Below, piece by piece: positions 2,183 to 20,946 of a stretch of 23,673 nt of DNA. Made by a program: the position numbers and the translations under genes. The stretch is from a virus: the IMG/VR virus record IMGVR_UViG_3300026209_000477, positions 1-23,673 of that record; one strand, written 5' to 3'. Every line of letters starts with the position of its first letter. Positions within the stretch are counted from its first letter, which is position 1. The notes below the pieces were generated by a model. That model was not told the origin of the DNA. It saw only the letters and a program-made list of their open reading frames with translations, and did no database searches.

Positions 2183-3685
2183 TTAGTCTTTTCCAGGAAT
2201 ATTGTGAACTAATATATCTGAACTGAAGTAGGTATCAATATCTTCCACATCCAATGAATAAAAAATAATATCTTCTTCATCATAATTTTCCTGAATATCT
2301 ACTATATCAATCTCATTACCATCTTTATCAAACAACTTATCGTCTGTATCTAATCTCCAAGTTTGTTTAAATTTGTAAGTTCCGCTTCCTGCATTATTTG
2401 CAAAAGCACTTCCAAGTTGTGGGAATATATATTCGTTATTATCACTACCACTAATTGTATAATAATGTGGTGTAGTGTATACTCCACCACCAACTACAAC
2501 TGAACCAGTCATAAAACTTCCTGATAAATCTGATGTTGAATAATTCAAAAAATCTAAATCTCCATCTGGCATCCCAATTGGTTGAAATGATTTAACCACA
2601 TCACCTATTTGAACATCTTGAATCTGTTTTGTTGAGTCATCATACATACGAATTAAACTACCACTTGGTGTTGAAAGTCCTTGATGTGGTTTCAATGTCC
2701 ATACTGCCCAACCATCATTAGTGATATCATCATCTGCTAAAGTATCTACTGGTGGATATAATTTTAGGTGTTGTGGATTATAAAATGAAGAGATAACTTT
2801 AGTATCTTCTGGTGTTACTAATAAAGAAACTCTACCTTGTGAACTATATTTTTGATTATTAGAATCAACACTACCCGAACTTATTATAAAATTTTCATTA
2901 ACATTTCCAGTTGAAGTATTCAATCCTAATATAGCCGATGAAGATTGTTCCGTTCCGATAGTATCTGCTCTATAACTATTTAACATTAATTTTCCACCCA
3001 TTGTAACTTGCATAGATGCATCACCTTGTGTAGTTTTATTTACATAATCTGGCCAATCTCCAATACCATGTCCAATTGAAATTGATGATGAATCAAAAGT
3101 AGAAATTAAACTTGAAGATACTGGTGAAGTAGATAATGTTGACCTAAACCAATCCTTATTAAATGAACTACTTACTATTTGATATAATGTATCATCCGTA
3201 TGTTCAGGGTTATGTAAAAATAAATGAAAACTTCCAGAATGATTTGCTTGTCCTCTCATATCAAGATATTGTCTATTTGTAGGCGTAGTATTAAAAGAAG
3301 AACTAATATTAACATCTGCAAAACTTGAAGATATTATTCCTCGTTGTGCCATTGGTGGATTTGTACCAAATTCATTTGAATAATCACTACCATATATAAT
3401 TACATTATCATAACTTTGAGTTGCAGCATATTGTGCTATATCTGGAAAAAAATTAGTAAACACTGCAGATACTTGTGCAGAATACATATTTGTATTATTT
3501 TCAAAAAACTTAACTTCATTAGAACCACTTTCAATTGTGAAATCTAATCCAGCAATTATACCAGCTCTACTTAATGTAGGCCAACCACCTGCACTGCCTG
3601 TTACATAGTTCCAAAATTCTTTTGCTTTACTATGTACATCACTTCTTTGATTATAATTAATCATTTTATCTTTTGTTAGTGCCAT
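2183..3685 (-). CDS. Serine-rich protein with C-terminal Hint (intein-like) autoprocessing domain
   Basis: The 500-residue product has an N-terminal part (1-337) rich in repeated SSSF/ISSS-type segments and mixed beta-like sequence, resembling a virion protein. A C-terminal Hint domain spans about 338-495. Its block A fits S338 as position 1, followed by GSLIRM and an IQDVQIGDVVKS stretch (355-366). Block B is T404-T-P-H407 (TxxH). Blocks F and G are YSLDVEDIDTYFSSDILVHN (476-495), ending in the catalytic His494-Asn495. Only IPGKD follows. Because residue 496 is Ile rather than Cys, Ser or Thr, protein splicing is unlikely; autocleavage or transfer chemistry is more plausible. The ribosome site AAGGAG lies 6 bases before the ATG. 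Residues 47-66 faintly recall the C-terminal strand of ATP-grasp enzymes, but I do not rely on that. The Hint call is firm; the role of the N-terminal part is not known. Confidence 0.75.
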   Translation of the reverse strand: MALTKDKMINYNQRSDVHSKAKEFWNYVTGSAGGWPTLSRAGIIAGLDFTIESGSNEVKFFENNTNMYSAQVSAVFTNFFPDIAQYAATQSYDNVIIYGSDYSNEFGTNPPMAQRGIISSSFADVNISSSFNTTPTNRQYLDMRGQANHSGSFHLFLHNPEHTDDTLYQIVSSSFNKDWFRSTLSTSPVSSSLISTFDSSSISIGHGIGDWPDYVNKTTQGDASMQVTMGGKLMLNSYRADTIGTEQSSSAILGLNTSTGNVNENFIISSGSVDSNNQKYSSQGRVSLLVTPEDTKVISSFYNPQHLKLYPPVDTLADDDITNDGWAVWTLKPHQGLSTPSGSLIRMYDDSTKQIQDVQIGDVVKSFQPIGMPDGDLDFLNYSTSDLSGSFMTGSVVVGGGVYTTPHYYTISGSDNNEYIFPQLGSAFANNAGSGTYKFKQTWRLDTDDKLFDKDGNEIDIVDIQENYDEEDIIFYSLDVEDIDTYFSSDILVHNIPGKD

Positions 3686-3731: not shown

Positions 3732-4300
3732 GTATCCAATAAATCAATTATATTTCCTCGTATTCCGTTTTCTTTTAATGCATACAGCAATGGTGCTTTA
3801 TTCCATATTTCAATATCATACACAACATAATTGTACCCAAGTTCATATAAGTGTTTAAATCCATGTATTCCTATAGAATAATCTCTTATACCACGATATT
3901 CTGAATCAATCCAAATGTTATAACCATAAATATACTTACCAGTATAAATTATGTCAACTCCAGATTCAGTATAATCAAAACTTGGTGTATTATAAACAGG
4001 ACTACCATTTTGATCCCATGTCTTGTATATTTTTTGACCCAACCACAACCATGCTATAATTCTATCATCTTTAGTAATATAACTAAATATATCACCATTA
4101 TTAATTCTCCAATCAAAATCGGATTCATTCCACATACCTTCATAATCACCAATATCTTTTTTAAATAACTCTAATCCATCATTAAGATTATCTGGCTTCC
4201 CAACATGAAAATTAGAATTAATCTCCATACTTTTATAGAACCCCTGGTGATCCAGAAGATTGGTTTCAAATCGTATTAGTTTTTCTTTACTGTTTTCCAT
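3728..4300 (-). CDS. GNAT-family N-acetyltransferase-like protein
   Basis: The 190-residue protein has a GNAT-like C-terminal half. A beta-strand (GYNIWI, 126-131) leads into a motif-A-type acetyl-CoA loop, R136-G-I-R-D-Y-S-I-G144. A helix and a strand follow (YVVYDIEIW, 158-166), then an N-K-A-P segment (167-170) like the Asn/Ala-containing motif B of many acetyltransferases. The N-terminal 70 residues are unassigned, and residues 71-90 fit the early GNAT strands. Such enzymes move an acyl group from acyl-CoA to an amine on a small molecule or protein. The ATG at 4300 lies inside the last codons of the adenylating-enzyme gene (25-base overlap, other frame), so the two are probably coupled and may act in one pathway. 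Fold confidence is moderate; the substrate is unknown. Confidence 0.6.
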   Translation of the reverse strand: MENSKEKLIRFETNLLDHQGFYKSMEINSNFHVGKPDNLNDGLELFKKDIGDYEGMWNESDFDWRINNGDIFSYITKDDRIIAWLWLGQKIYKTWDQNGSPVYNTPSFDYTESGVDIIYTGKYIYGYNIWIDSEYRGIRDYSIGIHGFKHLYELGYNYVVYDIEIWNKAPLLYALKENGIRGNIIDLLDT

Positions 4301-4995
4301 CCTGATCTCTTCACTATATTATCACTTCTACCCTTCCAATAAAAGAACTCACCATCAAATGTAAAAATATCTTTTGTATCAAAAAAATCTTTATCGTAAT
4401 TAGATAACATAGACTCTCCTCTTAATCGTAAAGTTTTATCCAACATGATATCCCAACCACCAATGAGTTTTATTCCAAGATGTATATCATCACCCTTCAC
4501 AAAATTAGTACCCATAACTACTGGTATACATTCTGTAGAACCATAACCATGCATTACTTTTTGTACACCCAACTCTAACATAAACTCTACATCATCTACT
4601 GATGTTTCTTCGGCACCTATTAACATATGTTCTATAGAACTACAATTTGGTCTTAGTCCACTTTCTTTTAACATCCTTACCATTGTAGGTATTAATATTA
4701 ATTTTGTAGGTTTTAAATTTATCATTTGTTTAAACACTTCAGGTGAAAACTTATCACTATATATAGTTCCACCAATTTGTTCCATAGGTCTTGCCATAAT
4801 ATACGAACCGATTGTATATCTTGGTATAAAATCCAATAGTATATCTGATTTATTCAGACCAAATACTTCTATATTTGAATTGATTGAATGTTGTAAAGAT
4901 TCTTCACTATGTAAAACTTCTTTTGGTTTTCCTGTAGAACCTGTAGTTTTAAACTTCACTTTTACCCCACTTGATAATGTTCCAAACTCTTTCAT
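4276..4995 (-). CDS. Truncated ANL-superfamily adenylating enzyme (acyl-CoA synthetase/ligase-like core)
   Basis: The protein carries the central motifs of acyl/aryl-CoA synthetases, numbered here from ATG 4995. The phosphate-binding loop TTGSTGKPK is at 17-25, the adenine-pocket motif GYGSTE at 150-155, the ribose-binding Asp region FDTKD at 205-209, and the hinge segment GRSDNIVKRSG at 222-232. It begins just before the phosphate loop, so the usual 150 or more N-terminal residues are missing. It stops at the hinge, so the C-terminal lid with the catalytic lysine of ordinary ANL enzymes is missing too. It may be a minimal phage form completed by a partner, or a decayed gene, although the core motifs are intact. 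I chose ATG 4995 because the in-frame ATGs at 5001 and 5022 extend further into the DUF2061 gene; none has a clear ribosome site. It overlaps the GNAT gene at its 3' end. Confidence 0.72.
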   Translation of the reverse strand: MKEFGTLSSGVKVKFKTTGSTGKPKEVLHSEESLQHSINSNIEVFGLNKSDILLDFIPRYTIGSYIMARPMEQIGGTIYSDKFSPEVFKQMINLKPTKLILIPTMVRMLKESGLRPNCSSIEHMLIGAEETSVDDVEFMLELGVQKVMHGYGSTECIPVVMGTNFVKGDDIHLGIKLIGGWDIMLDKTLRLRGESMLSNYDKDFFDTKDIFTFDGEFFYWKGRSDNIVKRSGWKTVKKN

Positions 4996-5359
4996 GTACA
5001 TAGTGTGTAACAATAAATGCAATGTTACTATATATTGTCCACTCTAAAGATGAACTATTATCTAATCCTAATGCCTTACCAATAAAGAATAATACTATAA
5101 AAGAATAAACCCTCCAAGTAATTGTTTTAATTACACTTCTTCTTTTAGTATCACTTTCATTTAATCTATCCCAATTAACACGATTCCAAATATATTCGTG
5201 TATAAGATAACTTACAAACCCTATCGTGTAACTTGCAACTACCAATTTCAATGCAAATTCATTACCATGTCCTAATAGATATGATAATAAAAATATTGAA
5301 AGTAATCCTGCAGTTCTATAACTTAATGTTTTTACTGTTGTTCTATAATTTTTATCCAT
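4949..5359 (-). CDS. Tandem DUF2061 membrane protein
   Basis: The 136-residue protein is two copies of the DUF2061 module, about residues 5-64 and 72-131. Each has a basic start (K-T-x-x-[YW]-R), two hydrophobic segments (about 15-30 and 36-54; 84-98 and 106-121) and a closing H-E-x-[IV]-W-N signature (54-59 and 122-127). About four membrane spans in the inner membrane are therefore predicted. DUF2061 proteins occur in marine bacteria and in T4-like marine phages; I know of no established function. A GGAG ribosome site sits 6 bases before the ATG at 5359, directly after the zinc-ribbon gene's stop. The 3' end overlaps the next gene by 47 bases. The family call is confident, the function open. 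Confidence 0.8.
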   Translation of the reverse strand: MDKNYRTTVKTLSYRTAGLLSIFLLSYLLGHGNEFALKLVVASYTIGFVSYLIHEYIWNRVNWDRLNESDTKRRSVIKTITWRVYSFIVLFFIGKALGLDNSSSLEWTIYSNIAFIVTHYVHERVWNIIKWGKSEV

Positions 5360-5646: not shown

Positions 5647-6681
5647 TCATACCACTCCTTGTAATGTGTGTAAAGAATTAGTTTCTTTTAACATCTGTTT
5701 CCATATTGTTTCAAACTCGGAATAATTAGGATGTCCTTTTTTCCAAACTGCCTTTTCTTCATATTGTTCATCGGTAAGATTACCCCAATTTAAAACTTTA
5801 TAATATTGTGTCTTTACCTTTTTATTAGATAAATTTTCTTTTAATTCAAGTAATTTTAAAATCTCTTTGTAATTATCATTCTGTACTACAAAACTAAATA
5901 TCACCGTTTCAATGGTATCAATAGTATTTATAAATTCTAAGTTCCTCATTAACAAATCCCAATCTCCACCTCTTCTTGTAATCTTATAAGTTTCTGGTGT
6001 AGCAGCATCTATAGATATTTCCATAGTTTTTAAAAATGGATGAACACCTTTCATAGTTTCCCACAACTTTGGTGTAAAAGAATTTGCATTAGTATGTAAA
6101 TGTATATGTCCAACATTTGGATATTTCTTAGTATCAAACTCTTGTAAAAAACTTTTAAAGAAAGGACTTTGTAATGGATCACCTGTTCCACTTATATATA
6201 ATCTGTAAGCATCTTTTATAATCTCTTCTGTAACTATTTTATGAATCCGTTCCATATTTTTCCAATTAGGTGAATTTGGTGAATCCATAATCATTTCATT
6301 TCTACAAGTAGGACAAGATAATGCACAACTTCTGTCATAATTAAAAGCAACAACCAATGGTCCTGTAGTTGCTTCTGGTTTAAACTTTCTCCACAACACA
6401 CCTAAATCATCTTTATTGAATACAGGTAATTCAGAATCAAGTTCATCTGATAATAATTGTGAACAATTTTCTTCTATACAATTTTTAAAAGTAGAATCAA
6501 TCATACTCTGTCTATATTCTTTTGCAATCTCACCATTCCAAACTTCTTCCCAAGATTGTTCTAATATATTACCCATTGGTTTTGTAATCCATCCTGGACA
6601 ACAATTATAAACATTTCCATCACCGTGAATCTCTGTAAATGCCCACGGTTGTCTACACCATCGGTTCTTAATATCAATCAC
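5647..6681 (-). CDS. Radical SAM enzyme with N-terminal SPASM-like Cys-rich domain
   Basis: The 344-residue protein contains the radical SAM cluster motif C119-x3-C123-x2-C126 (in SCALSCPTC) and a GTGDP motif (165-169) equivalent to the GGE/GTGEP segment that binds S-adenosylmethionine. Beta/alpha-barrel sequence follows (HLHTNAN, EISIDAA). Before the barrel, residues 1-75 hold C9, C27, C28, C68 and C73 around a G-D-G-x-V-x-x-CC segment. This looks like a SPASM-type auxiliary Fe-S domain placed at the N-terminus rather than its usual C-terminal position. SPASM enzymes often modify peptides or proteins, but carbohydrate and other substrates are known, so the target is not determined. The start is GTG at 6681, giving a GTGA overlap with the clamp-loader stop and a GGAAAA site upstream. 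This ties its translation to a replication gene. Confidence 0.85.
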   Translation of the reverse strand: MIDIKNRWCRQPWAFTEIHGDGNVYNCCPGWITKPMGNILEQSWEEVWNGEIAKEYRQSMIDSTFKNCIEENCSQLLSDELDSELPVFNKDDLGVLWRKFKPEATTGPLVVAFNYDRSCALSCPTCRNEMIMDSPNSPNWKNMERIHKIVTEEIIKDAYRLYISGTGDPLQSPFFKSFLQEFDTKKYPNVGHIHLHTNANSFTPKLWETMKGVHPFLKTMEISIDAATPETYKITRRGGDWDLLMRNLEFINTIDTIETVIFSFVVQNDNYKEILKLLELKENLSNKKVKTQYYKVLNWGNLTDEQYEEKAVWKKGHPNYSEFETIWKQMLKETNSLHTLQGVV

Positions 6682-7601
6682 TTTATTTTTCCAATTACCT
6701 CAACAAACATAGCCATAATGTTTATTTCTTTATCCACTACAACTGCATCTGATTGTTGATATTGACTTAATGTTAATATACATTCTGCAACATGACCTCT
6801 TCCCCAATCATCTACGGTATCAAATAATAATCTGAATAAATCACTAAAGTCTGTTACTTTTGAGTCTGCTAATGTTTGTCTTATATTCTTAAATGAATTC
6901 TTTTTATCTTGTGTTTTTAAAATATCTAATACTTGTAACTTATAATCATTTTGTATTGCCATTCCCTCATCAATCACAAGTTTACCATTTACTACTTGTC
7001 TTTGTACTGAATTTATAACTCGTCTGATATCAGGATAACCACCATTAACTATAGTTACAATATCATCTACTGTTGCATCCACCTTTTCATTCTTTAAAAT
7101 ATTTGAAACATGAAGTGCAACTTGTTTCCTATCTGGTGGTATAATCTGAAATGATTGACATCTTGATTGAATTGGGTCTATGATTCTCTCAACGAAATTA
7201 CAAGTTAAGATAAACCTACAATGTTTACTAAATGTTTCCATTAGGTTTCTTAATGCAGCTTGAGCATTTGGTGTAATGTAATCACACTCGTCCAAGATAA
7301 TCACTTTCATATCTTGGAATCCAAGTGTTGAGGCAAAGTTCTTAACTTTCTCTCTTACTACTTCTACACTATTCTCGTCTGACGCATTAATATACAGATA
7401 ATCACAATCTATATTATTAACGAGTAATTTAGCGAGAGTGGTCTTACCTGTACCAGCCCTTCCAAACAATAAAAGGTGTGGTAAGTCTCCACTCTCCAAA
7501 TACACCTTGACTTTACTCTTGAGATGTTCATTCCCAATGTAAGTGTCAAGATTCGAAGGCCGATACTTTTCTACCCATAAACTATTTTTAATTTCTTCCA
7601 T
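6678..7601 (-). CDS. 44: Clamp loader large subunit ATPase (T4 gp44-like)
   Basis: This AAA+ ATPase (307 residues from ATG 7601) matches the clamp-loader large subunit of T4-like phages (gp44, 319 residues) and RFC-type loaders. It begins with the VEKYRPSNLD clamp-loader signature (10-19). It then has Walker A GRAGTGKT (47-54), Walker B VIILDECD (100-107) and the SRC arginine-finger motif (146-148). It opens the sliding clamp and places it on primer-template DNA. I prefer ATG 7601 because it forms TAATG with the methyltransferase stop, the same junction used elsewhere in the window; ATGs at 7616 and 7622 are in frame and would add 5 or 7 residues. No gp62-like small subunit gene follows; a radical SAM gene takes its place. 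Confidence 0.92.
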   Translation of the reverse strand: MEEIKNSLWVEKYRPSNLDTYIGNEHLKSKVKVYLESGDLPHLLLFGRAGTGKTTLAKLLVNNIDCDYLYINASDENSVEVVREKVKNFASTLGFQDMKVIILDECDYITPNAQAALRNLMETFSKHCRFILTCNFVERIIDPIQSRCQSFQIIPPDRKQVALHVSNILKNEKVDATVDDIVTIVNGGYPDIRRVINSVQRQVVNGKLVIDEGMAIQNDYKLQVLDILKTQDKKNSFKNIRQTLADSKVTDFSDLFRLLFDTVDDWGRGHVAECILTLSQYQQSDAVVVDKEINIMAMFVEVIGKIK

Positions 7602-8848
7602 TATAACTTTTTCCATATCCAAATTGGTTCACAAAATGTTTTTCCGTTTGTTTCTTGTGCTAATTGTAGTGATTCTTCTGTAAATCTATTATCCGAAGCC
7701 GTTCCAGCTCCACCACTATTTGGTCTCTGTGCCATTTCCATTCCAATACAACCTTGATATTCCGAGTCGTGGAATGTAGATAGAAAATCATTCATAGGAT
7801 TACAAATCTCTAACCATTTCTTACCATGAGAATTTAATCTCTTTTGTTTTGCTCCACTACTCGCATAAACATCACTTATGTTCACTAATAAATATCCACC
7901 ACTCTTTATAGAAACCCATAATTTTTTAAGAGTTTTCTGTAAAAATTGTTCATTCCATTCATCAATAGTTTTATATCTAACCCAACTTTGAGTATCATCA
8001 TAACTATATCTTTCAACTCCAAAATATGGTGGTGAAGTAAATACCGTATCAAACATATCTTCATACTCTTCAAAATCTACATCTTCTGCTGGTGATTCTA
8101 TAAACTCACAATCCTTATCAACTTCAAAAAACATATTTCTATGTGTATTATAGAAATCTTTCTGTTCCTTGTATATCGGATGATTTTCTTTTCGTGGGTC
8201 TATTCCAAGATAATATTTACCTGTTTCACTACCATAGAATCCTGCCAATCTATCTCCCCAACCTGCACTAAAGTCTAATATGTTTTCACTACCTAACTTA
8301 TCATATAATACTTTTGCCACATTTGGTTTAAACTGAGAACAAATATACTTTCTCAATCCAATCATGGTTCTCAATACACTACGATTTATTTTAGGTAATT
8401 TTAAAGTATAGGCTGCTCCCATTAAACTTACCATAAACTTTTCAGTTTTCCAAGTTCTTTCTGGACCTGGAGCAATAGTTCCATCTACACTCCATCTATT
8501 CTTTTGTTGAAAATAATTACTTGAACCATTTCCTGTATTGATTCTTCTAAAGTATTGTTGTTTACCTTGAAAAGATAAATCATATTTATATTCTGAACCT
8601 TCTCGAGCAAACCAAGTACCATCAACTAAAATTTCATTATGTCTCATACCTTTAAGTTTCATTAAATCCTTGTAGGCATCATTCTCTGAAATTAGAGCAT
8701 ACGGTATCCCATAAGTCATTGCAACTTTTGCAAGACTCTCTTTGACATCTTGTTTGTCAAATGTTTCTTTTATGTATTTCCATTCTCCTTCATCAATTGA
8801 AAGATATGGTTTCATATTTAAGAATTTATCAAAATAATCTAAATACAC
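7601..8848 (-). CDS. TSPPY-motif DNA methyltransferase-like protein (paralogue 1)
   Basis: The 415-residue protein has a C-terminal Rossmann methyltransferase. Motif I is ILDFSAGWGDRL (190-201), an acidic D217 follows at the end of the next strand (GIDP), and the catalytic loop TSPPYFGVERY covers 271-281. [ST]PP[YF] loops are typical of amino-methyltransferases acting on N4-cytosine or N6-adenine. The N-terminal 150 residues are unassigned. They align well with the protein encoded at 19735-20946, including the first residues, which supports the GTG start at 8848 directly after the clamp stop. The two share NMxPYxxIDExEWKYI near the N-terminus and ICNPMNDFL and GCIGMEM further on. The gene sits between clamp and clamp loader, usually adjacent in T4-like phages, so it looks inserted. 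DNA modification is the likely role; another nucleic-acid target is possible. Confidence 0.78.
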   Translation of the reverse strand: MYLDYFDKFLNMKPYLSIDEGEWKYIKETFDKQDVKESLAKVAMTYGIPYALISENDAYKDLMKLKGMRHNEILVDGTWFAREGSEYKYDLSFQGKQQYFRRINTGNGSSNYFQQKNRWSVDGTIAPGPERTWKTEKFMVSLMGAAYTLKLPKINRSVLRTMIGLRKYICSQFKPNVAKVLYDKLGSENILDFSAGWGDRLAGFYGSETGKYYLGIDPRKENHPIYKEQKDFYNTHRNMFFEVDKDCEFIESPAEDVDFEEYEDMFDTVFTSPPYFGVERYSYDDTQSWVRYKTIDEWNEQFLQKTLKKLWVSIKSGGYLLVNISDVYASSGAKQKRLNSHGKKWLEICNPMNDFLSTFHDSEYQGCIGMEMAQRPNSGGAGTASDNRFTEESLQLAQETNGKTFCEPIWIWKKL

Positions 8849-12175: not shown

Positions 12176-12205
12176 AATATAACAACAAAACCCTATATGA
12201 GTCAA
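12176..12205 (-). promoter_or_regulatory. Sigma70-like promoter for the DNA polymerase gene
   Basis: On the minus strand TTGACT (12205-12200, five of six consensus positions) is followed 18 bases later by TATATT (12181-12176, five of six); a register with TTATAT gives 17 bases. It lies between the hairpin after the TonB-receptor gene and the polymerase start, leaving a leader of about 20 bases. This is the best-looking promoter in the window and would let the polymerase be made independently of the receptor. Confidence 0.55.
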
Positions 12206-12222: not shown

Positions 12223-12249
12223 AGGGGGATAATATTGAACTATCCCCCT
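12223..12249 (-). terminator. Perfect 9 bp hairpin after the TonB receptor gene (terminator-like)
   Basis: AGGGGGATA and TATCCCCCT form a perfect 9 bp stem with a 9-base loop, beginning 10 bases after the receptor stop. The five G-C pairs are striking in such AT-rich DNA. No run of T follows the stem on the minus strand (TCTACTT, then an A run), so it is not a standard intrinsic terminator. It may be a transcript-end stabiliser, a processing site or an atypical terminator. Confidence 0.5.
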
Positions 12250-12259
12250 AAATACTATT

Positions 12260-15058
12260 TTAGAAATTAACACTTAACCCTAAGTTAAAGTATCTTGGTG
12301 TACCAAGAAATACTTCAGCATTATGAGCTGCGTGTACTTTATCTCCATAACTGTTGTATTGACTATGATCAACAGCGTCTTGTACATATACTTCATCCAA
12401 TGCGTTAAACACATGAGCGAATAAAGATATATCATATCCACTAACTGGTAGTTTATATGAAGCATGTAAGTCCACCTTAGAATATCCAGGTGCTTGCCAT
12501 ACTTGTTCTCTGTCAGCGTCTTCATCTGAACCATCATACTCTCGAGCATCAGGACTCCAATCACTATAGTTCTTTTCATAAGAATTCCATAGTGCTGAAA
12601 TTGCTAATCCCTTTACAGGTGTAATGGTAGCACCAAGTGCATATGATGTCTGTGGTTGATCACCAACAAACAATCCGTTAAGAGCGTATTGATAATCTGT
12701 AGCGGTTAAACCCGTTACATTACCGTTTTCATCATATTCATTTGATTGATATTTACCACTTGCATCACCATCAAACTTCCAAGTACCAAGACTTACGGCA
12801 GCCGTTAAACTAACCATCTTGTGTAATTGTGTAGAAGCTTCTACTTCTAAACCTTGATGTTTTTGATTAATACCTGTTAAGAAGATAACATCAGTATCAC
12901 CTGAATCACCTTGACCTGTGGTTACAGCTTTAGTAAGGTTTCTGTCTTTCCAATCTGTATTATAAACACCCGCTTTAACTGCGAATTTATCAGATTTGAA
13001 ATTGACTCCAGCCTCTGTACTAATGAAACTTTCATTCGTTGGATCAGAAGCAACCGTACCATCATAGTAAATTACATTATCCATGATTGGTGGTTTTTCA
13101 ACATAGCCAAAGTTACCAAAAAGACTAACATTGTCATCTATGTCGTACATTGCTCCACCTTTGAATTGCATCGTATAGATAGCATCAGCATCTACAACTT
13201 CATTTGCAACTGTAAAATGGTCTTGGTAAGAATACTTAATACTTGATAATCCACCCATACCATATAGATTTAAATTATCTTTTGTATAATTACCTTGTAC
13301 AAATCCACCTAACCAGTCAACTGTAGTTGAGTTATGATAAGCGATTATATCACCTAATTCAACTCGTTTACCATCAGGAGAGTTATCATCAGCATAATCC
13401 ATATAGTAATCACCACCAAGTAAATCGCGAACTTCACGAGCATGTTCGATACCCGCAGTTCTCCAATCTATACCTACTTGTATTTTTAACTCATCACTAA
13501 TATCGTAATTAAGTTTAGAAATTACACCGTATGTATCTTGACGATTAATACTATTTCTTAGAATACCAACTGATTGATTATTACCTTCACCATGTGTTCT
13601 TGGAAGTGCTCTTTTATCAACATATACTGTATCAGAATCACCTGAGTTATATGCGATAAGAGTATTCCAATCACGAGTCCAGGGAGAGCGACCATAATAG
13701 AATTTATAGTTTTCTCCACCTAAAGTACCATCGGCATCTAAAGTAGGAATCCTACCATAAGTACCTGTACCACCACCTGAACCACCACTCCAATAAAAGA
13801 CAGAACTTAAGCTTGTCTTATCATCGATAGCCCAAAAATGGTTTAAGTTAACCAATGGTTTATGAAAGTAATTTTCTCTCTCATTTAAGAAGTTGGGGTC
13901 ATGTCTGTCTGCCAATCCACTATCAAATAGTCCACCAACACCATACATATACCAGTATTGTTTACCTGTATATGAAGCATCTACTGGAGACCAGTTTTGA
14001 TTGAAGAATCGTCCAACATCCTTGAACTTACCATCTTCTCCAAGTGCGGTTTCATCATATCCATCTACACTTGCAGCAAAATCAGCGTCATAAGCACCAA
14101 TATTCTGTTTGTATAGATTCTGTCCATGTCGCTGTGGAGCACCGATTGCGTATAATTCCAATCGATGATCTTCATTCACTTGATAACTTGAACCTAAATA
14201 ATAAGCCCATGCATCTGTCCATGTTTTGTCGATAAGACCATCACCTGTTTTTCGTACAATAGCACCACTCAAGGCGAATTTATCACCAATAAGTCCACTA
14301 TTATAATTCAGAGTAGTTTTTAGAAAACCACCTGCACCACTTTCCTGTTTAAACTTCCCACCTTTTTCATAAGAAGCAGGGTCTGTGATTATGTTCATAG
14401 TTCCACCAATGGAAGGGGCAGCTAAATTAACAGCAGATAGTCCTCTTTGCATCTGAATTGATTGGGCTGCATCTGCAACACCATCCCAATTAGACCAATA
14501 GACCCATCCGTTCTCCATATCATTCTGGGGAACTCCGTTAATCATTACTGCTATATTCCTCTGATTAAACCCACGAACATTAATACGAGCATCACCCGCA
14601 CCACCACCTTGTTGTGTTGCATATACACTTGGTGTAGCATTCAAAGACATTGGAATATCTTGTGAACCAAGACGAAACTCAAGTTCTTCTTTACTAACTG
14701 TAGTGTATGCAACAGGTGTTTTTTCGTCAGCCCTTGAAGCCAAAACTTCGATGTCTGACAATGTAACTGCATCAATTGCTAAAGCAAAATCAACATTTAC
14801 ATCTTCTCCACCCACATCTACCTTTTGAGATAGAGATGAATATCCGATGAATGTAGCGGTAATAGTATAAGTTCCAGAATCAACTTTAATTGAGTAGAAG
14901 CCGTTTACACTAGCTACTGCTCCTAAGTCCGTTCCCTCTACTACTATATTTGCTCCATCCAAAGGATTTGTGTTAGAATCAGTTACAAGTCCAGTTATAG
15001 ATTGTGCGAACAATCCAGTTGTCATCATAATTGATACTAATAGATTATATATTTTCAT
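12260..15058 (-). CDS. TonB-dependent outer membrane receptor with N-terminal carboxypeptidase-regulatory-like domain
   Basis: The 932-residue product is a complete TonB-dependent receptor. It has a signal peptide (1-19, ending LFAQ), a carboxypeptidase-regulatory-like beta-sandwich (about 20-98, with NPLDGANIVVEGTDLG and the GTYTITATFIGY strand), and a TonB-box/linker region (about 99-112). The plug spans about 113-230 (SQDIPMSLNATPSVY, RINVRGFNQRNIAVMINGVP, GTMNIITDP). A long beta-barrel follows, ending in LGLSVNF with the terminal Phe needed for outer-membrane assembly. Such receptors import corrinoids, siderophores, glycans or peptides using TonB energy and are common phage receptors. This architecture is typical of Bacteroidota and relatives. 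AGGAG lies 8 bases before the ATG. There is no frameshift or internal stop. It is a bacterial-type gene between phage ribonucleotide reductase and phage polymerase. Substrate cannot be read from the sequence. Confidence 0.93.
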   Translation of the reverse strand: MKIYNLLVSIMMTTGLFAQSITGLVTDSNTNPLDGANIVVEGTDLGAVASVNGFYSIKVDSGTYTITATFIGYSSLSQKVDVGGEDVNVDFALAIDAVTLSDIEVLASRADEKTPVAYTTVSKEELEFRLGSQDIPMSLNATPSVYATQQGGGAGDARINVRGFNQRNIAVMINGVPQNDMENGWVYWSNWDGVADAAQSIQMQRGLSAVNLAAPSIGGTMNIITDPASYEKGGKFKQESGAGGFLKTTLNYNSGLIGDKFALSGAIVRKTGDGLIDKTWTDAWAYYLGSSYQVNEDHRLELYAIGAPQRHGQNLYKQNIGAYDADFAASVDGYDETALGEDGKFKDVGRFFNQNWSPVDASYTGKQYWYMYGVGGLFDSGLADRHDPNFLNERENYFHKPLVNLNHFWAIDDKTSLSSVFYWSGGSGGGTGTYGRIPTLDADGTLGGENYKFYYGRSPWTRDWNTLIAYNSGDSDTVYVDKRALPRTHGEGNNQSVGILRNSINRQDTYGVISKLNYDISDELKIQVGIDWRTAGIEHAREVRDLLGGDYYMDYADDNSPDGKRVELGDIIAYHNSTTVDWLGGFVQGNYTKDNLNLYGMGGLSSIKYSYQDHFTVANEVVDADAIYTMQFKGGAMYDIDDNVSLFGNFGYVEKPPIMDNVIYYDGTVASDPTNESFISTEAGVNFKSDKFAVKAGVYNTDWKDRNLTKAVTTGQGDSGDTDVIFLTGINQKHQGLEVEASTQLHKMVSLTAAVSLGTWKFDGDASGKYQSNEYDENGNVTGLTATDYQYALNGLFVGDQPQTSYALGATITPVKGLAISALWNSYEKNYSDWSPDAREYDGSDEDADREQVWQAPGYSKVDLHASYKLPVSGYDISLFAHVFNALDEVYVQDAVDHSQYNSYGDKVHAAHNAEVFLGTPRYFNLGLSVNF

Positions 15059-15085
15059 TTATAATCTCCTCTGTTTGTGTGTTAA

Positions 15086-15109
15086 GACGCATTTTTTCAT
15101 AGGTGCGTC
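15086..15109 (-). promoter_or_regulatory. Inverted repeat in the leader of the TonB receptor gene
   Basis: GACGCA (15109-15104 on the minus strand) pairs with TGCGTC (15091-15086) across a 12-base loop, within the 77-base gap between the reductase stop and the receptor ATG. An overlapping alternative pairing, ATAGG with CCTAT, uses part of this loop, so the two structures would exclude each other. A TTGACG hexamer overlaps the left arm, but I see no convincing -10 for it. This could be an operator, attenuator or processing site. I see no cobalamin-riboswitch B12 box, and the leader is too short for one. Confidence 0.35.
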
Positions 15110-15135
15110 AACTGCCTATTCGGGTATGTGAAATC

Positions 15136-17145
15136 TTAATTTGCATATTCTTGATCATCGTTATCCCCACTTAATGGTGGTATCTCACACGAATCATTAT
15201 TACAAAATTTATCTATTTCTGCCTCTTCGTTTTTAATTACTCCAAACGAAAGTGGTTTTAGTTTTTTTAATTTCTTGTTATATAACTTTTCATCTATTGC
15301 TTCATATGGCATTTGTTTGTAAGCTCCATAATCATGTCTTGGTAATAGTGAAATTCCTTTTAATCTGTATTGAAAATAATTCAACACATATGGTAGTTCT
15401 TCAGCTTCTGTTTCGGGATTGAATGTAGCTGTACAACTAACTTGGTTATCTGCCCAATGTCGTTGTAAGAATGCGGCTAAACTAAACTGTTCCCAGATTG
15501 ATAATTCAGCCGCAGTTCTAATCCCCTCACCTACATCTACTGGCACTTCTACAACTAATGTTGTTTTCTCTGAACCAAATGCTGGTTCTAATTTGTAACC
15601 TGCCTTTTTCAATGGCTGTATCAGGTCAGAGTTAACTGATAACCTAACTCTTCTAATATAAAATCTACTCTCTGGATAATGTAATCCTGGTGTTGCTCCT
15701 GCCAATAATGAAACCGTTCCACTTGGTTTTACACTTGTAGTCTTAATAGACTTAGGTACTGCAAACCAATCTGAATAAACTTTATCCCACTCTTGTATAA
15801 CATCATATCCATCTTCCAACCAATTTCGTAATGTATCTAATCCATTATTAGTAATGAATTGTGCTACTCCACTAACACTACATCCAATTCTTCTATTTCT
15901 CAACATAACTCTGTTTGTATCACTCCAATGTGTTCTACCAAGTGTTACGGTTTTGGCGTATAAATAAGCATATTTTAATGTACGAGAATAATCCTCATAT
16001 GAATCATGATTATTTGGAAATGTTTCTACTAAACAACATAACTCATAACTCTCTAACGATTGTTCTAAACATGGATTTCCACCTGCAACTCTGTGGTCTA
16101 CATCATCTCCACCATTCTTCATACGAGAAAAGTGTCTCATATTTTCTAACCATGCTAATCCAGGTTCTCCATTGTCTACTATTCTTTTACAAATGTCTGA
16201 ATAGTCCATACCTAATTCAGCAAAAACTGAATTATTTGAAGTCCACCCAAATTGCTCTCTATGTTTATTAACTTTATAATTCTTTAAATCTAAATATTCT
16301 TCATCATGTGGATCACCGAACACAATCTCTGCTGTTCGTCTTACATTACCTGCTACTACACATTTACCTATAAGATTCATAATATCAACAATTGTAGTAG
16401 TTGTAATTGGTTCACCACTATTCCTTTCTAATACTTTTCTAATATCTTCGTGAACTTCTTTTAGTGGTTCAGGTCCTGATGATACTCCACCGAATCCTTT
16501 GATTGGTACACCCTCATCTCTAATTAAACTATAATCAAATTCTACTGGCTGTGAACCATGAAAATAACTCTCTAATAATAACCTTAATGAATCCACCCAA
16601 CCTTCTCTTGTGTCTGGAATCTGAAAAGTTGTTAAATCCCTATCTTTATCAATACCTTTAACAATTATTTCACCAGCACCTTTTACATCAAAACCTACAC
16701 CAACACCTAACATTGATGCGTCCATTAAGAAACAAAATGGTTTTGAATAATCTTCTTTAATTGTTTTTGTTGATACGAAAGCACAATTGTTAAGTGCTGC
16801 ATATAACTTCTTTTCTTCTGTGATTGCTGTTCCCATAGCCCACAAACCACGGCCTGGTGGTAAGAATTTCATAGTGAACATTCTCTCATACATATCTTGT
16901 GCGGATTTTTGGGCTTGCCAAGGATTCCACCCTAATTGATGAGAGTTAATCCAATTCCATTGCATTGAATAAGTTCCTTCTACAACCCTTTGTACAGTTT
17001 CCCACCATCTTTCGTTTTTACCATTCTCTTTGATTCTTGAATAGGTTCTCATATAAACCAACTCACCAAGGCCATTAAAACCAAATGGTGGTTTTTTTCT
17101 TTTATACTTATCTATAAAATTTTCTGATAACTTAAACTTCTCCAT
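15136..17145 (-). CDS. nrdJ: Adenosylcobalamin-dependent (class II) ribonucleotide reductase
   Basis: The 669-residue enzyme resembles the monomeric Lactobacillus leichmannii-type ribonucleoside-triphosphate reductase (739 residues), which makes deoxynucleotides with a radical generated from coenzyme B12. The thiyl-radical Cys is C359 in NPCLEQ with E361 nearby. The reducible pair fits C121 (NNCAF) and C370 (ELCCLVE). The C-terminal shuttle pair is C648-x4-C653 (CNNDSC). The PPGRGLW segment (96-102) and the TTSVKPSGTVSLLAGATPG loop (about 479-497) are further hallmarks. All key residues are present. No class I NrdA/NrdB or class III genes are in the window. The phage therefore depends on host corrinoid for this step, notable because a TonB-dependent receptor follows 77 bases later. 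Confidence 0.92.
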   Translation of the reverse strand: MEKFKLSENFIDKYKRKKPPFGFNGLGELVYMRTYSRIKENGKNERWWETVQRVVEGTYSMQWNWINSHQLGWNPWQAQKSAQDMYERMFTMKFLPPGRGLWAMGTAITEEKKLYAALNNCAFVSTKTIKEDYSKPFCFLMDASMLGVGVGFDVKGAGEIIVKGIDKDRDLTTFQIPDTREGWVDSLRLLLESYFHGSQPVEFDYSLIRDEGVPIKGFGGVSSGPEPLKEVHEDIRKVLERNSGEPITTTTIVDIMNLIGKCVVAGNVRRTAEIVFGDPHDEEYLDLKNYKVNKHREQFGWTSNNSVFAELGMDYSDICKRIVDNGEPGLAWLENMRHFSRMKNGGDDVDHRVAGGNPCLEQSLESYELCCLVETFPNNHDSYEDYSRTLKYAYLYAKTVTLGRTHWSDTNRVMLRNRRIGCSVSGVAQFITNNGLDTLRNWLEDGYDVIQEWDKVYSDWFAVPKSIKTTSVKPSGTVSLLAGATPGLHYPESRFYIRRVRLSVNSDLIQPLKKAGYKLEPAFGSEKTTLVVEVPVDVGEGIRTAAELSIWEQFSLAAFLQRHWADNQVSCTATFNPETEAEELPYVLNYFQYRLKGISLLPRHDYGAYKQMPYEAIDEKLYNKKLKKLKPLSFGVIKNEEAEIDKFCNNDSCEIPPLSGDNDDQEYAN

Positions 17146-17307: not shown

Positions 17308-18669
17308 TTATTCAAACCCTTCGCCGTCAAAATCTTTTTTCTTCTGTGCTAATGTCTTTCTAATATATTCATCAGCATTATTCATCTTTCCTTGTACTTC
17401 TTTACCACCTTGTGTGTTGGTTTCGTAAATCTGAATGAAACCTGTATTAGTATTAATGGTAGCTGGAAAAGTAATTCCATCTGGACCAAATCTATTTTTA
17501 ATCACATGAAACCTACCTGTATTTGCGATTTTGTCTTCTACTTTTCTACTCATACTCATAACGAAATCTGCTGTCATAACTTTTGAATAATCTTCTGAAA
17601 CCTTATCTGCCCCAATAACATCTTCTTCTAATGATGAACGATTTGCTTGTGAAGCCGTCCATATTGGTATATTAAACTCTCCTGCCACTCCACGAAGTTC
17701 TTCATAAACATGACCTATCTGATGTCTTTTTTCTGTAAAATTGACAGTAGATTTCATAATATCAGCATAATCTACAATAACCAAATCTGGTTTTATTCCT
17801 TGTAATTCACATTGTTGTAGATGAGCAGTTACGGTATTCACACTAGCAGTTCTTGTTGGCCAATACTTGATGATTAAGTTACCTTTTAATTTATCAATTG
17901 CTTTCTGTACATCTTCCTTGTAGTACTGAAGATTTCCTGTAGGTTGTCCACTAATAATACAATCATATCTCAATCCAACATAAGCTGCATTTAACTCCAA
18001 TGTATAATGAATTACAGTTAATCCCTTTTTTACAGCATGTGTTCCAAGTGCTTGTAGTGTCCACGATTTACCAATTCCTGCTGGAGCAACTATAACACCG
18101 AGTTCTCCACCAGCAAGTCCACCATCCATTAAATCATTAACACTATCCCAACCCGTAGGTTGAGTATCCCTTGCTTGTTTTGTCATTCTTTCTTCAAAAC
18201 CAGTAATATATTCGTGTCCTATATCTCTTTCCATCCCAGCAGTCATTGCTTTATCTATAATTCCCTTTATATCGTCATATTGTTGAGTTTCCAATAATTC
18301 AACTGATTGCATGATTGCATTTTTCATTATTTGGTTCTTACAAAATTCTAATGTTTTCTCTTTAACAAATTCTAAATCTGGGTCTTCTCTATGTTGCCAA
18401 GCACCTCTCAATGAATCTACAATTGCTGTTTTTAATACATCATTCTCTACATCATCAACCATAACTTTAATACTTTCCATTGTTGGTTGTGATTTATATT
18501 TAGAAAAATAATCCTTAATTGATTTAACCAAAAACTTATTTGAATCAGTATCGAAATAACTTACTTCAAGAATGTCTATAATCTGTTTTGTAAACTTAAC
18601 ATCTGTTAACAAACTTGATATAATTTTACTCTGAAATGAAGTTCCGTATTTTACTAATGATTCACTCAT
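17308..18669 (-). CDS. 41: Replicative DNA helicase (T4 gp41/DnaB-like)
   Basis: The 453-residue protein has a helical N-terminal domain (about 1-150) and a RecA-like DnaB-type ATPase domain. The ATPase domain begins with the TGWDSVNDLMDGGLAGGELG segment (172-191). It then has Walker A APAGIGKS (195-202), Walker B LVIVDYAD (296-303) and the downstream IPIWTASQANR glutamine-sensor region. It would form the hexameric 5'-3' helicase of the phage fork, normally paired with a primase (gp61); no primase gene is seen here. Its ATG forms ATGA with the stop of the methyltransferase upstream, so helicase synthesis is probably coupled to it. The length is close to T4 gp41 (475). Confidence 0.9.
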   Translation of the reverse strand: MSESLVKYGTSFQSKIISSLLTDVKFTKQIIDILEVSYFDTDSNKFLVKSIKDYFSKYKSQPTMESIKVMVDDVENDVLKTAIVDSLRGAWQHREDPDLEFVKEKTLEFCKNQIMKNAIMQSVELLETQQYDDIKGIIDKAMTAGMERDIGHEYITGFEERMTKQARDTQPTGWDSVNDLMDGGLAGGELGVIVAPAGIGKSWTLQALGTHAVKKGLTVIHYTLELNAAYVGLRYDCIISGQPTGNLQYYKEDVQKAIDKLKGNLIIKYWPTRTASVNTVTAHLQQCELQGIKPDLVIVDYADIMKSTVNFTEKRHQIGHVYEELRGVAGEFNIPIWTASQANRSSLEEDVIGADKVSEDYSKVMTADFVMSMSRKVEDKIANTGRFHVIKNRFGPDGITFPATINTNTGFIQIYETNTQGGKEVQGKMNNADEYIRKTLAQKKKDFDGEGFE

Positions 18670-19745
18670 TTGACTTCCTTTTGAAATACAAAGATAGGTT
18701 CATATTTTGAACCAGAACCATCACCATCTCTGGCCATTGTTGATAAATTTAATTTAAGTGTGTTGATGTGTTTATAACCTAATTGTTTTGTAATTTCTAA
18801 TGTTCCGTTTTCTATATTTTTCCCACTCGAAGTGTTCGCTATATTCAATAATAAATATCCATTATCTTTCGTAGAATCAAAAGTATTTTGTAAAGTTTGA
18901 AATAAAAATCCATCTATCCATTCTTGTTCTGTTGGAAATTTAATATAACTTTGTGTAGGTTCGTCCGCATACTTTTCAGTATTAAAATATGGTGGTGAAG
19001 TAAAACATAAATCTACTTTTTCTTTTGGTTTGAATACTTCACTACCAAGACAATGTAATTCTACTTCCTTACCAAGATAACTAAACTCTTCTTTAATCTT
19101 ATTCAACCCCTTAAATGTTTTTGTTGATGGTTCAGTACCAATATATTTCTTTACTCTACTGGATGAAAGTGCACCAAGTAATCGTCCACCCCAACCACAA
19201 CTCATATCCCAAACTACACCATCTCCACCATAAGTTTCATAAATGTATTTTGCAGCAGTAGGACGAAAATTAGATACGGTTTGTGTTCCACCATATATCT
19301 TTATGTTCTGTCTGAATCTATTCTCTGTCCAATGTGGTTTATCACTATGATTAAAATGCCATTTGATTGTCTTTCTAATTACTTCCTTTAACTTATCATC
19401 ATCGTGAAAGTTTTCCATTGGTGTGGTTTTTGCATTACCACATGGAACTTCCCAAAATTGTGGAAAGTAACTCCATGCCAATCTCAATCCATTCATAGTC
19501 TGAGTTATCTCATCACCTTCAAGTATTTGTTCGTGTTTAAAATTCTGTAACTTTCTCATCTGTTCGTGTTTCTCTTCTTCACGAATTGTATAGTGTGGGA
19601 ATCCATTCTTTCTATAGTATTTGAAAATAATATCAAGAGCTTCATCATCATCTATTCTCTCTAAACTATTGCAAACTTTATGATAATCTAAAGTTATTTT
19701 ATCTTCGTCTATAAACTTACTTAATATATTATAATCAACTGACAT
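18666..19745 (-). CDS. TSPPY-motif DNA methyltransferase-like protein (paralogue 2, divergent)
   Basis: Numbered from ATG 19745 (359 residues), a Rossmann methyltransferase domain occupies the second half. Motif I is VVWDMSCGWGGRLLG (177-191), an acidic residue ends the next strand (GTEP), and the catalytic loop TSPPYFNTEKY is at 249-259. The loop and the following TQSYIKF segment match the two related genes at 19735-20946 and 7601-8848, but the N-terminal half differs, so this is the most distant of the three. The longer ATG at 19772 would overlap the upstream gene by 38 bases; ATG 19745 has GGAAAA upstream, a shorter overlap (11 bases), and is preferred. An amino-methyltransferase on N4-cytosine or N6-adenine is the likely activity. 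The target recognition region is not identifiable by eye. Confidence 0.75.
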   Translation of the reverse strand: MSVDYNILSKFIDEDKITLDYHKVCNSLERIDDDEALDIIFKYYRKNGFPHYTIREEEKHEQMRKLQNFKHEQILEGDEITQTMNGLRLAWSYFPQFWEVPCGNAKTTPMENFHDDDKLKEVIRKTIKWHFNHSDKPHWTENRFRQNIKIYGGTQTVSNFRPTAAKYIYETYGGDGVVWDMSCGWGGRLLGALSSSRVKKYIGTEPSTKTFKGLNKIKEEFSYLGKEVELHCLGSEVFKPKEKVDLCFTSPPYFNTEKYADEPTQSYIKFPTEQEWIDGFLFQTLQNTFDSTKDNGYLLLNIANTSSGKNIENGTLEITKQLGYKHINTLKLNLSTMARDGDGSGSKYEPIFVFQKEVK

Positions 19746-20946
19746 TTTTCCATAACCAAATTGGTTCACCAAATGCTACATTTTGTGTTTCTTGTGTTTT
19801 CTCTTTCAAGTGTTCATCAAAATATTCACTTTTAGCATTTCCTGCTCCACCACTATTAAATCTTTTTGTCATTTCCATTCCAATACATCCATAATATTTT
19901 AATCCTTTAGACTTTAAAAAATCATTCATTGGATTACATATATCAAAATAACCTTTATCCTTTGGATTATAAACATCTGCAATATTAACTGCAAGTATTC
20001 CATCTTTTTTTAATGTTGGAATAATCTTCTCTAAAGTTTTATGTAAAAAGTTTTTATTCCAACTATCAATATCTTTATATCTAATATAACTTTGTGTATC
20101 TTCTTCTGAATATTTTTCAACATTAAAATAAGGCGGTGATGTAAATATAGTATCAAAGTAATTATGATATTGTGTATAATCTACATCTTCTGCAGGTTTA
20201 CATATTAAATCTACATATTTATCACTTTCAAATATTGTTTGGTGTTTTTTATAAAACTCTACTTGTTTCTTATAGTTAGGATGATTCTTTGTGTTTGGGT
20301 CAATTCCTACATAATGATTTGTTTTATCTGATGCGTAGAATCCAGCCAATCTATCTCCCCATCCAGAACTAAAATCTAATACATTCTCACTCTCAAACCT
20401 ATCATAAAAAGCTTTAGCAATACTTGGTTTGAATTGTGATGCAACATACTTTCTTAATGTGGTTGCCATTCTAATTGATTGTTCATCAACCTTTGTTAAT
20501 ACTTGTTCCAATGAATAGAATGCCCTAACTATTGTTTTAATTCCTTTTACTGTTTGCCAAGTTCTCCATCCACTTGGTGTCCTTGTCCAATCAACTTTCC
20601 ATCTATTCTCTATGTGAAATGGATTAGAAGCATTATTACCTGAATTATCTCGTTTGAAGTAAAAATCACTTAATGGATATTTTGATTTCCTTTCATTTCT
20701 CGGAAACCATTCATCTTCTATTAAAATATCAGGCCACCATGAACCTTTTAATTTGTTTAAACTCTTGAGTGTTTGTCGTTCCGATATAACTGGGATAGGT
20801 GGCCTGTATGTTACTAATACTTTTGATAATTCTTCTATTACATCTTCTTTCTCATATGTTTCAATTATATATTTCCACTCTTTCTCATCAATGAAAATAT
20901 ACGGTTCCATATTATAAAACTTCTTAAAATGTTCTTGTATTGTCAT
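19735..20946 (-). CDS. TSPPY-motif DNA methyltransferase-like protein (paralogue 3)
   Basis: This 403-residue close relative of the protein encoded at 7601-8848 is alike from end to end. It shares an N-terminal NMEPYIFIDEKEWKYI-type segment (12-27), an FHIENRW region, RKYVASQFKPSIAKAFYD, motif I VLDFSSGWGDRLAGF (189-203), GIDP (214-217) and PAEDVDY. The catalytic loop is TSPPYFNVEKY (269-279), followed by ICNPMNDFLK, GCIGMEM and the C-terminal FGEPIWLWKN. The full-length match argues for duplication within this phage lineage or repeated capture of one family. The ATG at 20946 forms ATGA with the stop of the small basic gene upstream. The likely product is an N4-cytosine or N6-adenine modification of phage DNA. 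Confidence 0.78.
   Translation of the reverse strand: MTIQEHFKKFYNMEPYIFIDEKEWKYIIETYEKEDVIEELSKVLVTYRPPIPVISERQTLKSLNKLKGSWWPDILIEDEWFPRNERKSKYPLSDFYFKRDNSGNNASNPFHIENRWKVDWTRTPSGWRTWQTVKGIKTIVRAFYSLEQVLTKVDEQSIRMATTLRKYVASQFKPSIAKAFYDRFESENVLDFSSGWGDRLAGFYASDKTNHYVGIDPNTKNHPNYKKQVEFYKKHQTIFESDKYVDLICKPAEDVDYTQYHNYFDTIFTSPPYFNVEKYSEEDTQSYIRYKDIDSWNKNFLHKTLEKIIPTLKKDGILAVNIADVYNPKDKGYFDICNPMNDFLKSKGLKYYGCIGMEMTKRFNSGGAGNAKSEYFDEHLKEKTQETQNVAFGEPIWLWKNVS

Follow-up and report, generated by a model that had tools for sequence, protein, structure and literature searches.

Described systems and the receptor locus

TonB-dependent receptors (TBDRs) mediate the uptake of large or scarce nutrients in Gram-negative bacteria and also commonly serve phages as points of entry. 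Among phage-encoded proteins that alter the host surface, Lc of the temperate phage PA-2 is a porin. Lc and the protein described here are both phage-encoded outer-membrane proteins, but the latter is a predicted TonB-powered receptor in a T4-like genome.

The TBDR ("SusC") of the marine megaphage Mar_Mega_1 (LR745206) is read as a carbohydrate-uptake auxiliary metabolic gene (PMC9723777). It is likewise a TBDR of a marine phage, but is only about 28% identical to the present receptor over the plug region, falls in a different subfamily and occurs in different phages. BFVD supplies the only convincing full-length viral match, entry A0A8D9FQQ5, "SusC [uncultured marine phage]". Among the isolates and annotated phages of INPHARED, none has this TBDR family above approximately 31% identity, and the long INPHARED matches, which are only approximately 30% identical, are in unannotated human faecal contigs. 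The initial annotation stated that a phage-carried receptor has no common precedent. This is nearly right for the isolates and annotated phages of INPHARED but overlooks the distant megaphage SusC. Phage-borne TBDRs as such are not wholly new. What is new, with respect to the open literature and the databases searched, is a widespread, cassette-like TBDR family of T4-like phages that comes with a pseudoknot leader of its own. A search of openly accessible literature found no report of this phage receptor or of its leader RNA.

Two described RNAs resemble the leader of the receptor gene. In the T4 gene 32 operator, binding of gp32 starts at a pseudoknot and extends from there across the ribosome site (PMC535899, PMC3014915). 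Both leaders belong to T4-like mRNAs and have an H-type pseudoknot followed by an A/U-rich region of lower structure in which UUAA-like words and the ribosome-binding site are found. The likeness is one of layout; the T4 leader precedes a different gene, and the TBDR leader is strongly conserved in sequence across phages. The preQ1-I riboswitches (RF00522; PMC11625349) are likewise small H-type pseudoknots with an A-rich L3 just before the Shine-Dalgarno site, but their stem and loop lengths differ from those of the TBDR leader, in which P2 has 6 bp and there is no L2 gap. As drawn, CA precedes the P1 3' strand in the TBDR leader, versus AC or UC in preQ1-I. The inner G-C pairs of P1 are invariant, and an AC register is compatible with the covariation.

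The window, which is the whole stretch of DNA analysed, is a 23,673-base (23.7-kb) linear IMG/VR fragment. The TBDR gene lies in a replication module that also contains a DnaB-like helicase, a UvsX-like recombinase, an exonuclease and a clamp loader (Table 1). The initial annotation described an intact 932-residue receptor with a signal peptide, regulatory-like domain, plug and barrel ending in Phe, located between nrdJ and a DNA polymerase on the same strand. The reading frame, Pfam domains and structural model bear out this description, and the shared strand is the minus strand. The leader pseudoknot, the empty and deleted sites, the second phage context and the Marinimicrobia origin go beyond that annotation.

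Table 1. Positions of the receptor gene, its leader and its flanking features in the window.
Feature	Position	Strand	Description or basis
TBDR gene	12260..15058	minus	932 aa; signal peptide, CarboxypepD_reg-like domain, TonB-box region, plug, barrel, terminal Phe
Shine-Dalgarno AGGAG of TBDR gene	15066..15070	minus	sequence
Leader H-type pseudoknot RNA (predicted)	15083..15122	minus	leader inspection, covariation, covariance-model hit E 9e-13
Pseudoknot P1	15119-15115 / 15103-15099	minus	AUAGG/CCUAU
Pseudoknot P2	15109-15104 / 15091-15086	minus	GACGCA/UGCGUC
Pseudoknot L1	15114-15110	minus	CAGUU
Pseudoknot L3	15098-15092	minus	A-rich
TTTCACATACC element	15123..15133	minus	directly 5' of pseudoknot; shared by the majority of phage leaders but not by every one
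nrdJ, class II (B12-dependent) ribonucleotide reductase	15136..17145	minus	upstream flank of TBDR site
Family-B DNA polymerase (polB), phage type	9648..12146	minus	downstream flank of TBDR site
Terminator-like hairpin GGGGGATA-N9-TATCCCCC	12224..12248	minus	directly past TBDR stop; read from sequence
Sigma70-like promoter TTGACT-18-TATATT	12176..12205	minus	before polB; 10/12 consensus match only

The TBDR gene starts with ATG, 7 nt downstream of AGGAG. Read by eye, the N-terminus (MKIYNLLVSIMMTTGLFAQ) resembles a signal peptide. It is followed by a CarboxypepD_reg-like domain (residues 20-103) and a plug (PF07715, residues 112-220; 52.4 bits against a cut-off of 23.9). The barrel (PF00593) scores 57.9 bits against a cut-off of 27 (E 7e-18), and there are no internal stops. 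The protein ends in VNF, with Phe as the terminal residue. Nearly all aligned phage copies read as having both a signal peptide and a terminal aromatic residue. The AlphaFold2 model, built from a 78-row alignment, has a mean pLDDT of 83 and a pTM of 0.77 and consists of a plug and a large beta barrel. Its matches among known structures include Fiu, BtuB, FyuA and FhuA at Z 33-38. The motif EVLASRA (E104-A110), at the position expected for a TonB box, is invariant in 32 phage TBDR proteins. It is a candidate TonB box, and energised transport is putative.

The SusC/RagA family TIGR04056 matches only the N-terminal part of the receptor (63.9 bits) and does not reach its curated cut-off of 368.25. 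There is no SusD lipoprotein gene beside the receptor gene, the neighbours being nrdJ and polB. The BtuB-type family is absent from the NCBIfam matches of the phage receptor, and PHROG 5687, which has no function given, matches the plug region. The G+C content is 35-40% within the TBDR gene versus approximately 28-34% across most other DNA of the window. The hairpin past the TBDR stop has a loop beyond the limit of the terminator scan and a weak T-tract.

Distribution, exchange and bacterial origin

A scan of IMG/VR with the receptor protein yields more than 300 related stretches. The best 80 of these are full length or nearly so and are 66-86% identical to the receptor, apart from one near-copy at 100%. 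The reading frame is open in every viral copy checked. Most of the best 80 loci, on dozens of independent contigs, share the order helicase-nrdJ-TBDR-polB (context A). The longest context-A record (131.8 kb) contains a T4-type major head protein, a tail sheath and a single TBDR. In a second phage group (context B, 12 loci), the receptor gene does not adjoin nrdJ. Its neighbours there, named from sequence only, are Hsp20-like, deformylase-like, IMPDH-like and QueC/QueE/FolE-like genes. Two longer context-B records encode either a baseplate wedge protein resembling gp6 or a phage primase. Both contexts are those of marine T4-like phages. The idea that each phage has two receptor copies, one per context, finds no support in 21 records, mostly fragments, each of which has one.

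All 12 context-B loci contain a membrane protein of approximately 280-330 aa (for example L251:3339-4328 and L247:17503-18336), directly before the TBDR gene where checked. This protein has no match in Pfam or PHROG. Near their baseplate genes, context-B phages also encode another protein of approximately 430 aa, which has a signal peptide and looks secreted or outer-membrane-like (L249:9546-10859, L253:2571-3857). The one copy scanned has no family match. In another viral contig, two tRNA genes lie directly behind the phage TBDR (L062, 12731-12880).

The site between nrdJ and polB is found in several states. Among 70 further nrdJ loci, the TBDR gene is directly behind nrdJ in 48 and polB is directly behind it in 12; the empty sites have no pseudoknot leader. 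In one locus (L417), the nrdJ-polB gap contains GTTAATTTCTAA, which corresponds to the last TBDR codons (VNF and stop), as well as the TBDR terminator, so a counterpart of the hairpin in the window is kept. By its sequence, this gap is a deletion scar of the receptor gene. In a few of the 70 loci, a glutamine synthetase gene fills the slot, and at least two glutamine synthetase loci have the leader after the synthetase gene. On the basis of these receptor, empty, glutamine synthetase and scar states, the slot is an exchange site for nutrient-related genes and looks like a hotspot for them. Glutamine synthetase genes (PF00120/PF03951) occupy this position, either alongside the TBDR cassette or in its absence, in L243 (2082-3071, on the 131.8-kb record), L424, L428, L430, L396 and L397.

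The receptor gene is also exchanged between phages. Pairwise distances of the backbone genes intercorrelate mostly at rho 0.8-0.9, and at 0.5-0.7 for nrdJ. TBDR distances correlate with the phage backbone at only rho 0.16-0.25 and with the adjacent nrdJ at 0.43. Since its distances hardly follow the phage backbone, the receptor is swapped between phages as a cassette.

Close phage TBDR pairs have dN/dS values of 0.11-0.29, and bacterial pairs are similar. Conservation is 0.95 in the plug, 0.83 in the strands and on average 0.78 in the extracellular loops, the limits of which were placed by hand from predicted strands. Loops L7, L8 and L11 are conserved at 0.89-0.93, and L4 is lowest at 0.61. 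These values indicate that the phage receptor is kept under purifying selection. Some of the conservation could come from its use as a phage receptor.

The bacterial proteins nearest to the phage receptor are those of Marinimicrobia (SAR406, Neomarinimicrobiota; for example L082 and L083), with up to 72% full-length identity. Of 245 Marinimicrobia genomes, 121 match the receptor at E 1e-100 or better. The chromosomal copies are of the same family as the phage copies, but they have no pseudoknot leader and their neighbours are housekeeping or unrelated genes.

In an initial tree, the 32 phage TBDRs all belong to a single clade (SH-aLRT 100) nested within the Marinimicrobia, and contexts A and B interleave. 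In a tree with more bacterial rows, one TBDR from a Marinimicrobia MAG (L091/L498) is inside the phage clade, and a topology that keeps this sequence out of the clade is rejected (p-AU 0.015). The trees therefore do not prove a strict single transfer. Phage-to-host transfer or recombination is possible for this sequence. The tree topologies point to a single old transfer from host to phage as the main history, along with what was probably one back-transfer or a recombination. The MAG contig has 4266 bases and contains the TBDR in tandem with another TBDR, with no leader.

The polymerase of this phage lineage is not found in the 245 Marinimicrobia genomes, in which the best matches are only 34-37% identical. 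The host is probably of Marinimicrobia type, as judged from the origin of the receptor gene only.

Proposed role of the receptor

The reading that is modestly favoured is that leader and importer form a movable cassette of marine T4-like phages, in which a host-derived TBDR under pseudoknot-controlled translation brings nutrients into the infected cell by TonB-powered import. By its sequence, the receptor gene was acquired long ago from Marinimicrobia-type bacteria and has been retained under purifying selection. It would be transcribed with a short phage-specific leader, and the pseudoknot would fold just upstream of the ribosome-binding site. The pseudoknot would then set translation of the receptor, acting either as a small-molecule riboswitch or as an operator bound by a phage protein, on the model of gp32 and the T4 gene 32 leader. 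The receptor would be placed in the outer membrane, powered by the host TonB-ExbB-ExbD system via the conserved TonB-box region, and would import a scarce nutrient that supports phage replication. As a host-derived gene that is intact in phage genomes, the receptor classes as an auxiliary metabolic gene with a putative metabolic effect.

The substrate lead is genomic. In non-Marinimicrobia loci with room for a neighbour, the gene directly downstream of the receptor relative encodes an exported PF01663 type I phosphodiesterase/nucleotide pyrophosphatase (E ~1e-89) in 13 of 41 cases, and PF01663 is within 5 kb in 2 more. The link is absent from all 25 Marinimicrobia loci with room; strong PF01663 homologues are found elsewhere, unlinked, in 13 of 16 such Marinimicrobia genomes. 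Because relatives in other phyla often precede this exported enzyme gene, the best and sole substrate lead, which is a hint, points to a nucleotide or other phosphodiester. The linked relatives are only approximately 44-50% identical to the phage receptor, so the substrate may have changed. An imported nucleotide or phosphodiester would make sense beside a reductase and a DNA polymerase. Assignment of a substrate from structure was rejected, as the PDB matches are generic; siderophore, B12 and haem receptors tie in the structural search, with BtuB, Fiu and FyuA level.

A conserved, regulated and repeatedly exchanged receptor would imply that marine T4-like phages remodel the outer surface of the infected cell in a way that feeds replication. 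The remodelled cells are probably SAR406, an abundant, uncultured group.

The initial annotation had proposed nutrient import, receptor replacement against superinfection, and decoy binding. Import is the best supported of the three by the TonB-box region, the plug, most ligand-side loops, purifying selection and the host-type family, and a pure decoy is unlikely. Receptor replacement is doubtful, though it is the strongest competitor to import. Here the phage allele would compete for TonB or replace an entry receptor and so block rival phages, and allele swapping would reflect an arms race. TBDRs are well-known phage receptors, and FhuA-T5 complexes are among the structural matches. The exchange of alleles almost independently of the backbone, the occasional loss of the gene and the low conservation of L4 (0.61) fit this explanation as well. 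However, the surface loops are conserved as in a working importer, with L7, L8 and L11 at 89-93%. An extra receptor should normally increase adsorption rather than reduce it, and a block would not require an intact TonB-box region or plug.

It is improbable that the receptor supplies cobalamin (B12) to the adjacent class II reductase NrdJ. The two genes adjoin in context A and BtuB is among the structural matches, but the BtuB matches are level with those of siderophore receptors. In addition, nrdJ without the receptor is common (the 12 direct nrdJ-polB loci), and the context-B receptors have no adjoining nrdJ. At Rfam thresholds, a cobalamin riboswitch is found neither near any of 12 Marinimicrobia homologues nor at any of 6 phage loci.

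The leader RNA and neighbouring genes

The leader element preceding the importer gene is approximately 35 nt long, is a short distance upstream of the Shine-Dalgarno site and is present in contexts A and B. Its consensus is (A)CAGG-CAGnn-GACgCA-CCTG(T)-nnAAAAA-TGcGTC, and its distance to the Shine-Dalgarno site is about 12-27 nt, mostly 16-19. The element is found in 76 of the first 80 viral TBDR loci. Of the remaining four, three are truncated where their contig ends, and in the fourth the A-loop is longer.

Covariation supports folding of the leader as an H-type pseudoknot RNA. In a gapless alignment of 63 distinct sequences, which are related and were retrieved by a pattern restricting several P2 letters to purine or pyrimidine, 97.1% of cells are paired and 6 of 11 pairs have double changes. 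In the same set there are 46 double-change cells versus a shuffled mean of 9.8 (0 of 500 shuffles as high) and 0-16 in slid controls. Positions 4-6 of the P1 5' strand were free in the pattern, and positions 5 and 6 have 19 double changes and no mismatches. Four inner pairs are invariant, and G-U pairs occur at P2. The folding energy of the leader (z -0.14) is uninformative because the program cannot form pseudoknots.

The element is confined to phage receptor genes in the DNA searched. Over 953 kb of phage and bacterial DNA, the covariance model finds only five receptor leaders at E <=8e-12, and the next match is at 0.085. The pseudoknot occurs once per phage record over approximately 330 kb. 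In two IMG/VR pattern scans, all 129 occurrences with enough downstream DNA precede a TBDR and the others reach the contig end. There is no convincing match in the 245 Marinimicrobia genomes, including their TBDR homologues. A 22-nt partial match in a bacterial sequence (L448) is judged to be chance; the P1 5' strand is missing and no gene of the window is nearby. At the Rfam 15 gathering score, the window and five phage loci yield tRNAs only, and at E 10 there is no relevant family for the leader.

The pseudoknot probably sets the timing or translation of the receptor. A tentative extension is that the leader is a new, phage-confined class of pseudoknot riboswitch that senses the imported nutrient or a downstream metabolite. 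If this were true, the virus would equip the infected cell with a full "sense and import" module. A purine or 7-deazapurine is one candidate ligand, based on the QueC-like gene in the window and the QueC/QueE/FolE-like genes in context B. Because the RNA is compact, covaries strongly and is dedicated to one target gene, a ligand or protein partner can be sought directly, and the pseudoknot marks phage-borne copies of the receptor in sequence data.

There is also a small chance that the leader repeats act as DNA operators, with a repressor recognising two inverted repeats that interleave. Sites for dimeric proteins could also give inverted repeats with compensatory changes. However, the element sits in the leader, shortly before the Shine-Dalgarno site, the H-type interleaving has an invariant A-rich loop and nearly constant spacing, and P2 contains G-U pairs. 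The TTTCACATACC element next to the pseudoknot is possibly a promoter or a part of the leader. A general phage promoter role for TTTCACATAC is ruled out, since there are few further copies across the phage records.

There is a negligible chance that the locus arose by faulty assembly or comes from host contigs wrongly labelled viral: G+C is raised in the receptor gene and mislabelled bacterial contigs do occur in some collections, but dozens of contigs share the same junctions, the same site has empty and deleted alleles, longer records bear capsid, sheath and baseplate genes, and the leader is phage-specific. The initial annotation had suggested looking for the gene at the same locus in sister phages. 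The receptor recurs there, and this arrangement in dozens of other contigs excludes a chimeric join as a general explanation.

Several other genes of the window are of note. A QueC-like protein (PF06508) is encoded at 385-942 and, together with the context-B QueC/QueE/FolE-like genes, suggests 7-deazaguanine chemistry. Two tandem 2OG-Fe(II) oxygenase-like genes (942-1565 and 1558-2169) encode enzymes unusual for a phage. The 500-aa, Ser-rich, structural-looking protein at 2183-3685 has no match in Pfam or PHROG, and its C-terminal part is Hint/intein-like by eye. A short AMP-binding (adenylate-forming) enzyme, 248 aa long (4276-5022), has a 92% identical copy in another contig (L061). A radical SAM/SPASM protein, also an unusual phage enzyme, is at 5647-6681. 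Three related DNA-methylase-like genes (PF01555-type) are at 7601-8848, 18666-19772 and 19735-20946. Two of these are approximately 71-73% identical in DNA over long stretches, which points to a duplication inside the replication module.
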